64,000 nucleotides of DNA, taken from assembly GCF_039555335.1 (NCBI RefSeq), contig NC_092640.1:28925446-28989445 (forward strand), read 5' to 3'. Position 1 is the stretch's first letter, and the number at the start of each line of letters is the position of its first letter. Origin of the DNA: Amphiura filiformis (taxonomy: Eukaryota > Echinodermata > Ophiuroidea > Amphilepidida > Amphiuridae). The notes under the pieces were generated by a model. It worked only from the letters and a program-made list of their open reading frames with translations, was not told the DNA's origin and searched no databases. Below are positions 39,917 to 63,586 of the stretch, in pieces. The translations under genes were made by a program, and so were the position numbers.

Positions 39917-42900
39917 ATGTATCAACAAGTAGGAAGTGAGGGCACACATGCTTCTATCGAGGATATATTTAACGACAAGCCTGTAGAGCAATCCCGTGTT
40001 TCTCGTGACCAGAAATTTTTCAATGCGGTTAAAACTGGCGATCTTGAGATTGTAAAACTTTTTCAGCAACAAATTCCCGAATGCACAGAATGGTTGGACA
40101 GAGTAAGTTTCTTGTTTCTTTATTCATATACATTTATAATAATATCGGCCATGCCCTGCTTGACTTACAAATTGCTATGAAGACTCAGAGGTTAGACTTC
40201 AATAAAATTTCGAGTACATGGGTTGTGGATGTTACATATCCCATGCATACTCTAGACCACTGGACATGTGACGTCATTGCCCGGCAGTGCTTTGTTCTTT
40301 GCCCTGAAGTGTGCATACGCATCGTAGTTTGCAAAGGGCACGTGCATTTTAAATCGCCCACCACATTTTATGTTCGCTGTCGAAGTGACGTAATTAATCG
40401 GATTAAATACCACAGCAATGAATATATCGCCCAGCACGACAACGTTCACGCTGTACCTATGCATTGAACCATAGATGTCAAAGAAAGGCTGATCACTCGC
40501 ACCTGTAAGATTGATATTTTTGAAAAGTAGTGGTATTGTATTCAATCTATGTTTGCAGACATACGCAGGTGATTAGTGCAATATACTTGTAGTGTTGGGC
40601 GATCTATTCAAAAATTGTATTCATCCATTGCTATGATAGTTAATCCGATTATTAGATCACTTCGACATTATTATATTATATTAGGCATATTAACCAACGC
40701 AATTTTAACTCGATTTGATACCGTTTTTGATTCTCATAGGATGGAAAGCGGGCAATTCATCATGCCGTTACTCACGGACAATTGGAAGTCTGCAAATACT
40801 TACTTGAAAATGAAGTGTCACTCGATGTTAACGCCCAAGATCAGGTACATGAATCCTAAATATTTTCCCCTGTTGTTTTGTTCTTCGTTCTGTTGCTGTT
40901 CTGTTTGCTCTCCGTCTTCTACTTCCTCATCTTGTTTTTCTTCTTTCTTGACGGATTGGCGCCAATGTAGCAATTAATCTCACATTTCCAAGAAGCTGTG
41001 TAAATCCTGGTTAAGCTACATGTGCTGGTAGGGAAATTGCCTGCAGAGTTGATCTTCTGTTGGAGAACAAGTTGGCGTGTGAGGCTAGAGTCAGCTATAT
41101 GAAGCTTAGATAATACCTGGCAAGAGAGATCTGCTGCTTCACTCAAGGCAGAGCCATTCTCATTTAAATAAAATTCTGTCCTCTATGGGTATCCAGAGGA
41201 AATGTCTCACGATAATACAATAGAATAGGTTGTACTGTAGGTATGAATGATTGTGGCGTCGTTCTAGAGACCTGTCTCGCTGTCCACTTAGAACTACCCT
41301 CCAAATTTGCTGCCATTTTCAATAATTGTAATACTGTTTCGGTTGGTTCTCTCCTAGCCAGTAAGATCATGCCTGGAAGCCAATGTGGGCACGTTTGTTT
41401 GATGCATGTAGAACTAGAGTCATTTTAACTAAATGTGAAAACTGATGGCGCTATTTATCTTAAATTTAGTTTGAATATTTACAACATGTAGACACTGTAC
41501 ACTGCCACTAAAACATCAGAAAAACTAACAAAACAAAGCGAGGCAATAAAAACTTTTCATCGTGAAGTAGGGGTGGTCTTTTTATTATGTCAAGACTCTT
41601 TTACAAAGCTGAAGTTCTTACACATTTACAAAAAAATAGTTCTATCGTTCTTGTTTTTCACATATACCAGTTTGGTAGAACACCACTATGGTATGCAAAG
41701 GATGACGAATTCAAATACATTTTAATTGCAAAAGGAGCTACTGTAAGAGATGCAAATTATACCATAAAGTCTAACGTCCAGAATATATTCCTGCATGACC
41801 CACATCTGACATCATACAATAGTAATAAGTTTTTCAACGCAATAAGAACTGGCGATCAAGAGACTGTTGAGGTTTTTCTTCACCATATCCCTCGATGCAT
41901 TAATTGGCTAGATACAGTAAGTATATATTAATACCAGAATTGTTATTGATTAAAGAATTATTCATGTATTTATTTATTTATTTATTTATTTATTTATTTA
42001 TTTATTTATTTATTTATTTATTTATTTATTTGTATTTATATTTACATATTTATATGTTTATTTATATAATATATTTATCAATTTATTTTATAGTTTTTCA
42101 ATGTGCAGTTTTTTAAGTGCTTACTTCATACTATATCATTAACGACATTCAAATTTTGCACATTACGCACCTGGTTGACTTTTGTCAAAATATTACCGTT
42201 TCATAAAGCTTCTAAAAACAAACCAATAGTTCGATGACATCCGATTAACGAAAGTCGTTTCGTTAGGGGGTGTCAAAACGTCTGATTATGTTGGCAAAAA
42301 CTAGGTAAAATATCAGTCAAATTTAACCTTTTGGGTCACACATTTTTCTCACCTGCGTTTCATCCGAACGAACATAAAAATCATCAAAATTCAGATTTCG
42401 GTACCTCTGTTATTGTCATAGATGTGCAAACATAACCTGCTAGTGCATGGTTCAGCCGAAAGCCGTGTATTTAAGACAAAATAAGGCATTTTACGTGAAT
42501 CTGTAATATACTGTCAGTATATAAATTAGCTACATGTACTTGAATGGGGCTTCAAGCTCGTCAATATGGCTGTTTTCTTCGTTTTAGCCAAATTTTAAAT
42601 ATCAAAAATACAAAATGACAATTTGAATGACCTATCCTTCACTTTTCAGCAATTTATAAATAATTTTATTTTTACCCTTGCGCTGGGATCACTGAATGGG
42701 TCTTTAACGAAGACACTTTCCTTTATAGGATGTCACCAATCTTTGGTGGTTATCTTCTATTTATTGGTGCCAAAAGTGTCTTTTAAAACAAAGTTATATG
42801 TTCAAAATCCTATATAGGAAGGAAAGGGTGCCCTGCATCTCGCAGTTTCACACAGACAGTTGGAAGTCTGCAAAACGCTACTTGAAAGCGAAGTGTCACT

Positions 42901-63586: not shown

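Follow-up and report, generated by a model that had tools for sequence, protein, structure and literature searches.

The order of domains in a candidate gene on the + strand of the window (the whole 64,000-nucleotide stretch of DNA analysed here) recalls DAPK1, and it raises the question of whether a ROCO protein of the DAPK1 branch can exist without a kinase. As described in the cited passages, DAPK1 represents the ROCO group that is marked by a death domain, occurs only in animals and is the sole group with a kinase ahead of ROC (PMC6337361), and its attached kinase is under the control of the GTP state of ROC (PMC6337361, PMC6320773). The original prediction placed ankyrin repeats, ROC, COR and a death domain, in that order and with no kinase, at 39917-63586, and offered either a lost kinase or a kinase-free paralogue or ancestral form as the explanation. 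Our preferred reading, to which we give a probability of about 60%, is a protein-coding gene without a kinase, which is most likely an old ROCO paralogue of the DAPK1 branch.

By rebuilding the gene by eye and by script, we joined 21 exons on the + strand into a protein of 1221 residues, which was read with an X at each of two frame breaks (exons 10 and 20). All 20 introns run GT-AG apart from the one behind exon 13, which has a GC donor, and phase 0 is kept by all but the intron between exons 18 and 19; the longest, between exons 13 and 14, measures 3234 bases. Judged by its sequence, the 21-exon candidate is a genuine gene with its domains in the predicted order and at the predicted coordinates. 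The ATG at 39917 is the candidate start. Because the reading frame of exon 1 stays open upstream of it and a normal-looking acceptor lies at 39902 (score 5.5, where the model's 20 acceptors span 0.1-9.6 in a leave-one-out comparison), 39917 is only a possible start, and an upstream exon spliced at 39902 is possible.

The first 14 exons encode the ankyrin array. Exon 1 (39917..40102) combines an N-terminal segment with repeat 1 (DQKFFNAVKTGD...), exon 2 (40740..40844) is repeat 2, exon 3 (41671..41916) holds repeat 3, a linker and, as repeat 4, a copy of repeat 1, and exon 4 (42818..42922) is repeat 5, a copy of exon 2. Repeats 6 to 13 follow in exons 5 (45326..45424), 6 (46164..46265), 7 (46975..47076), 8 (47495..47593), 9 (48046..48144), 10 (49564..49664), 11 (50308..50406) and 12 (51883..51981), repeat 14 lies in exon 13 (52449..52553) with its GC donor, and exon 14 (55788..55859) carries a partial repeat 15. 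In the joined protein 15 repeats could be counted, and Pfam matched them as Ank_2 (E=6.8e-78) and Ank (E=1.4e-66); LRR was absent from the Pfam matches of this protein, and the repeats ahead of ROC are ankyrin. Exons 2, 4-9 and 11-13 are 99-105 nt long and each encodes one whole repeat with a common start point; exon 10 is of the same single-repeat type, its frame break aside.

Comparison of all 105 repeat pairs revealed that the most alike are 2/5 (score 110) and 1/4 (score 101), and further close pairs are 8/9 (score 83) and 10/12 (score 77). Since the pair 3/6 is unremarkable among them (score 41), the duplicated block comprises two repeats, perhaps three. Repeats 1 and 4 share 67% nucleotide identity, with a saturated dS of 2.18 and a dN of 0.29 over 31 codons, while exons 2 and 4 share 77%, with a dS of 0.55 and a dN of 0.21 over 35 codons. 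The resulting dN/dS values of about 0.13 (repeats 1/4) and 0.38 (exons 2/4), rough for so few codons, suggest that the duplicated exons have been under purifying selection, with differences that are mostly silent, and they reflect the past rather than the present. The array would thus have grown by exon duplication, most repeats being their own phase-0 exon, and copying of the N-terminal block is seen for two repeats and presumed for a third. Searching the window with the joined protein (tblastn, matches listed to E of about 9.6) revealed no further ankyrin exon and no second ROC or COR outside the exons better than E=1.2, and among the best 32 non-overlapping coding candidates inside the gene the additional ones did not read as ankyrin.

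ROC starts in exon 15 (56411..56530) with the P-loop GDPRAGKTS (G1) and continues through exon 16 (58183..58236), exon 17 (59595..59810), which carries STPGID (G2) and WDCAGQ (G3), and exon 18 (60819..60930), which carries SHLD (G4); these motifs were read by eye. Pfam Roc covers residues 559-700 (E=1.7e-9, above cut-off), and both exons 17 and 18 lie within the Pfam match and within matches to LRRK2 ROC structures. Among the best 60 of 117 matches of ROC to solved structures, LRRK2 ROC domains lead, followed by Rab GTPases (best E=4.5e-6). Exon 19 (61128..61288) lies past the Pfam Roc match and contains the end of ROC by alignment with DAPK1 (ELIVVDARLPSG). COR starts in exon 20 (61493..61674), where Pfam COR-A spans residues 782-907 (E=3.2e-5, 24.3 bits against a cut-off of 35.3), and exon 21 (62384..63586) holds the remaining COR, a DAPK1-like tail (SSILCIG), the death domain and the stop codon. 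Thus ROC is directly followed by COR, as Pfam and the collinearity with DAPK1 both indicate, which is the mark of the ROCO family. Unlike in LRRK1 and LRRK2, no kinase follows COR, and exon 21 runs from COR through the death domain to the stop.

The candidate death domain occupies 63248..63487 inside exon 21 on the + strand (residues 1110-1189), where Pfam Death gave E=5.6e-4 and 20.4 bits against a cut-off of 22.6. As profile matches, the ankyrin and Roc assignments are firm; because COR and Death are both under the Pfam cut-offs, these two calls lean also on the collinear match to DAPK1. Among solved structures the death domain matched no solved death domain and gave chance-level matches only, with Par-6 chains first, and the last 181 residues alone scored 3.8 bits against the DAPK1 reference sequence. 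Two tryptophans that the cited passage describes as strongly conserved in death domains (PMC3726526) are Y and G in this protein. With the COR and death calls so qualified, the exon model and Pfam bear out the domain order and coordinates of the original prediction, together with its count of about 15 repeats and its reading of the main G motifs, here G1-G4; what it had missed are the frame breaks in exons 10 and 20, the open frame of exon 1 ahead of 39917, the layout of one repeat per exon and the duplicated repeat block.

The kinase was sought with a human DAPK1 sequence whose kinase part was verified by the identity of its first 334 residues to PDB 2x0g. With this query, tblastn gave no + strand match at E 10 or better in the 39.9 kb upstream of the gene, and phmmer gave nothing better than E=11 on the same strand upstream. 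Over the whole window, the one match better than E=1.9 was a kinase N-lobe on the - strand (20-316, E=1.3e-6); distant kinases are thus within reach of the search. It belongs to a tyrosine-kinase-like kinase gene on the - strand whose start lies in the window (2-421, MATPANHIKRSDLKFGKQIGEGG...) and which runs off the left edge, and Pfam matched its 2-316 portion as PK_Tyr_Ser-Thr (3.1e-15); because it is on the opposite strand, it cannot be spliced to the ankyrin-ROC-COR gene. Patterns for the catalytic loop and the DFG motif gave zero matches on both strands of the window.

Reading the best 25 non-overlapping of 476 splice-bounded coding stretches upstream, we found in third place a + strand exon at 7320-7542, in which RLSAAEALEFPWI resembles the last helix of a kinase domain; the kinase-end-like part is followed by a basic stretch and then by a stop of its own. 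A pattern of the RLSAAEALEFPWI type, devised after the exon had been seen, has one match in the window and none in 200 shuffles. Pfam found no kinase in this exon, nor in the 10 + strand ORFs of 1062-7539 that include it, which were scanned along with 3 more + strand and 7 - strand ORFs. The best match of the exon to a solved structure is a weak one to MNK1 (E=1.1), and the DAPK1 kinase scores it at chance level (phmmer, 1.1 bits, E=26). Most simply, 7320-7542 is the last exon of another + strand gene.

The same exon lends weight to a rival reading, in which the window shows just the 3' portion of a DAPK-type gene of the ordinary kind, with a kinase that ends at 7.3 kb and continues to the left of the window. 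A donor at 7462 (score 4.8) agrees in phase with the acceptor at 39902, an agreement with a one-in-three chance, both scores are within the range of the model's sites, and exon 1 is open upstream of 39917; a fused kinase form is possible because this donor and acceptor agree in phase. Such a gene would need a 32 kb intron holding a - strand acyl-CoA dehydrogenase gene, whereas the longest intron of the model has 3234 bases, and its supposed kinase exon ends in its own stop and has neither a Pfam kinase nor a DAPK1 score above chance, with the rest of the + strand upstream empty at E 10. Its ROC-COR would also be just 24.6% identical to the human DAPK1 reference. We regard this reading as unlikely, though it deserves to be taken seriously. 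The kinase-free paralogue that we prefer is consistent with the searches, and within what was scanned in the window the gene is likely kinase-free; this status is likely rather than proven because the kinase-end-like exon at 7.3 kb could splice in frame. The predicted lack of a kinase therefore stands for the + strand upstream as searched by tblastn and phmmer, and is tempered by the 7.3 kb exon and the open edge at 39902.

Two exons are not intact as read. Exon 10 (101 nt) and exon 20 (182 nt) each contain a one-base frame break, and by eye both breaks adjoin short single-base runs. The breaks are either assembly errors or early decay, and their position beside single-base runs, which are places of assembly error, fits the former. 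A once-coding copy that is now a decaying pseudogene would account for both breaks, but the other 19 exons are open, 20 of 20 introns have usable splice sites, and dN/dS between the duplicated exons is well below 1, though that value concerns the past and comes from 31 and 35 codons. Decay is quite improbable on this evidence, and a working paralogue in the DAPK1 branch remains our reading.

The branch was assessed against unverified reference sequences of DAPK1 beyond its kinase, MFHAS1 and LRRK2. With these references, ROC-COR of the window protein scored about 88 bits against DAPK1 (88.3-88.8), about 23 (22.9) against LRRK2 and 8-10 against MFHAS1; in a set of eight sequences it scored 88.3 bits against DAPK1 and at most 27.3 against each of the six others. 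Shuffled controls for the DAPK1 match reached at most 0.8 bits, with 35 of 100 shuffles scoring at all, and the match, as a comparison of sequences, is above chance. By phmmer it is collinear for about 515 residues; it starts beyond the P-loop exon 15, which stays outside the match, and reaches into the tail that follows COR. ROC alone gave 30.6 bits for DAPK1, 26.7 for LRRK2 and 5.5 for MFHAS1, and COR alone gave 46.6 bits for DAPK1, 6.1 for MFHAS1 and no match for LRRK2. Because ROC alone scores LRRK2 nearly equal to DAPK1, the affinity to DAPK1 sits in COR and the tail. The local phrases shared with DAPK1, which had been noticed beforehand, do align with the reference sequence: SSILCIG in the tail of the window protein with SSIMCFG, and ELIVVDARLPSG with KLFVLDAGASGS.

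In a tree of these eight sequences, namely the window protein, DAPK1, LRRK2, MFHAS1 and four bacterial ROCO proteins from plasmids (all four records used), the window protein and DAPK1 form a clade with support of 95.8/95. The topology test on this set rejected a grouping with LRRK2 (p-AU 0.024), while a grouping with MFHAS1 fell short of rejection (p-AU 0.072). With four sequences the DAPK1 grouping was again best, MFHAS1 was rejected (p-AU 0.038) and LRRK2 was not (p-AU 0.204). Over 395 ungapped columns the window protein and DAPK1 are 24.6% identical (97/395), compared with 25.3% for DAPK1 and LRRK2 and 22.0% for the window protein and LRRK2. All branches are long, because the pairwise ROC-COR identities are 22.0-25.3%. 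At about 25% identity, in a comparison with the human DAPK1 reference only, the gene looks like an old paralogue rather than the DAPK1 gene itself. Pattern searches for relatives in viral contigs gave 53 matches with the two-sequence alignment and 13 with exon 21, with none confirmed.

The predicted affinity to DAPK1, as opposed to MFHAS1 or unrelated ROCO proteins, is upheld by the score of about 88 bits and by the clade, with the p-AU values of 0.072 for MFHAS1 and 0.204 for LRRK2 (four sequences) as its qualification. It is highly improbable that the protein belongs to the MFHAS1 or LRRK branch, or is some unrelated ROCO protein, and came to look like DAPK1 through convergent gain of ankyrin and a death domain: these two p-AU values, the near parity of ROC alone and the domain shuffling around ROC-COR described for animals in the cited passages (PMC4104024, PMC5094078, PMC9334734) would allow it, but DAPK1 is the best grouping in both trees, ROC-COR scores 88 against at most 27 bits, COR alone favours DAPK1 and the match extends through the SSI-C-G tail behind COR.

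According to the above-described domains, a mode of action for the kinase-free paralogue may be proposed. The 15-repeat ankyrin array would act as a sensor or dock for a ligand or partner; by comparison with known ROCO proteins, ROC, in which G1-G4 are present, would cycle between GTP and GDP, and COR would dimerise the ROC switch. The GTP switch would then expose or cluster the C-terminal death domain, which would recruit other death-domain proteins via homotypic contact. With no kinase, output would run by recruitment through partners and not by phosphorylation. On this domain content it is fair to propose a GTP-switched death-domain adaptor. The protein may also be an invertebrate immune scaffold, by analogy with ROCO proteins joined to death, TIR or MyD88 parts in the cited passages (PMC4104024, PMC9334734, PMC5094078). 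If the gene does lack just the kinase, its ankyrin-GTPase-death part can act without one, it would help to tell a late gain of the kinase from a loss, and it would offer a natural protein for studying the GTP switch and death-domain output of DAPK1 apart from phosphorylation.

The window protein resembles DAPK1 in its order of ankyrin, ROC, COR, tail and candidate death domain, its collinear ROC-COR-tail and the shared clade, but the kinase and calmodulin segment of DAPK1 were not found in this gene, and its 15 ankyrin repeats exceed the shorter array of DAPK1 (about 8-10). By eye, G3 is DCAG here and EFSG in the DAPK1 reference, and the stretch from P-loop to G3 is about 45 residues shorter, the P-loops being out of register in the alignment. 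MFHAS1 (MASL1) is likewise a kinase-free ROC-COR protein, said in the cited passage to act on outside effectors (PMC6320773); it differs by having LRR and neither ankyrin nor death domain, and by its ROC-COR match of 8-10 bits. The joining of ROC-COR to death-fold or immune adaptor domains has parallels in Trichoplax ROCO proteins with death-fold domains and in proteins from Aplysia and sea anemones that join ROCO to TIR or MyD88, as the cited passages report (PMC4104024, PMC9334734, PMC5094078). The ROCO partners named in these passages are CARD, death, TPR, LRR, AAA, TIR, SH3, MBT, EF-hand and kinase, and ankyrin-ROC-COR-death without a kinase is not named there. No description of that combination was found in a literature search at the level of titles and abstract openings, to which the Marin reconstruction (cited in PMC4104024) is external. 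A kinase-free, death-domain ROCO protein represents a new arrangement of a known kind of gene; invertebrate ROCO genes with death-fold domains had already been described. Databases hold invertebrate 'DAPK1-like' entries of the kinase-free sort.

As for the layout of the array, brown algal ROCO genes carry one LRR per exon, shuffled, and are proposed immune receptors in the cited passages; in both systems a sensor repeat has its own exon, and exons attached to a ROCO core have been duplicated (PMC4104024, PMC11378527). The brown algal LRR exons have 72 nt, whereas the ankyrin exons here mostly have 99-105 nt. Since other ankyrin genes, too, usually devote a separate exon to each repeat, the likeness may mean little. 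It is a doubtful extension of our reading that the ankyrin exons are interchangeable phase-0 cassettes in front of a GTP switch that has no kinase and acts through a death domain, which would make the gene an exon-shuffled intracellular immune receptor, perhaps alternatively spliced, convergent with the brown algal LRR-ROCO genes.

Several other elements were observed around and within the gene. Its head-to-head neighbour on the - strand (22130-30520) is an acyl-CoA dehydrogenase gene, in which 5 of 7 ORFs scanned matched Acyl-CoA_dh_1, _M or _N in Pfam, 2 of them above cut-off; this neighbour perhaps extends to 33921 through an ORF at 33736-33921 that was joined by eye alone. The reverse transcriptase of a retroelement (+ strand, 17542-18618, RVT_1 1.9e-35) is followed, 1.5 kb past it, by a second open stretch on the + strand (20136-20780) with no Pfam match above cut-off, and both the reverse transcriptase and the acyl-CoA dehydrogenase gene sit in the interval from the 7.3 kb exon to the 39902 acceptor. 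At 18908-19173 a 132-base unit forms two tandem copies with 99% matches. CpG as a promoter sign at 39.2-39.6 kb was considered and dropped: a 400-base step gives a ratio of 1.37, but steps of 500 bases give 0.94-1.24, and the signal is not distinctive because the 90% and 95% marks of the window are 1.13 and 1.30 (500-base steps).

The longest intron, between exons 13 and 14, holds a foldback-type element at 52984-55304, whose 11 pairs of nested inverted repeats have arms of up to 326 nt and are 75-99% complementary. In the next intron but one, which separates exons 15 and 16, tRNA-Ser(TGA) (57484-57556) and tRNA-Ala(TGC) (57876-57952) were called on the - strand about 320 bases apart with similar flanks, and instead of being tRNA genes they may be SINEs derived from tRNA; at gathering scores, Rfam gave nothing beyond these two tRNAs in the window. 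The intron between exons 16 and 17 is rich in AAAACGTTTT-like units at 58700-59380, and the top 500-base CpG ratio of the window (1.78 at 58851) falls inside this stretch. Exons 8 and 9 are separated by an intron with a perfect microsatellite at 47759-47891, in which AAGA is repeated in 33 copies.
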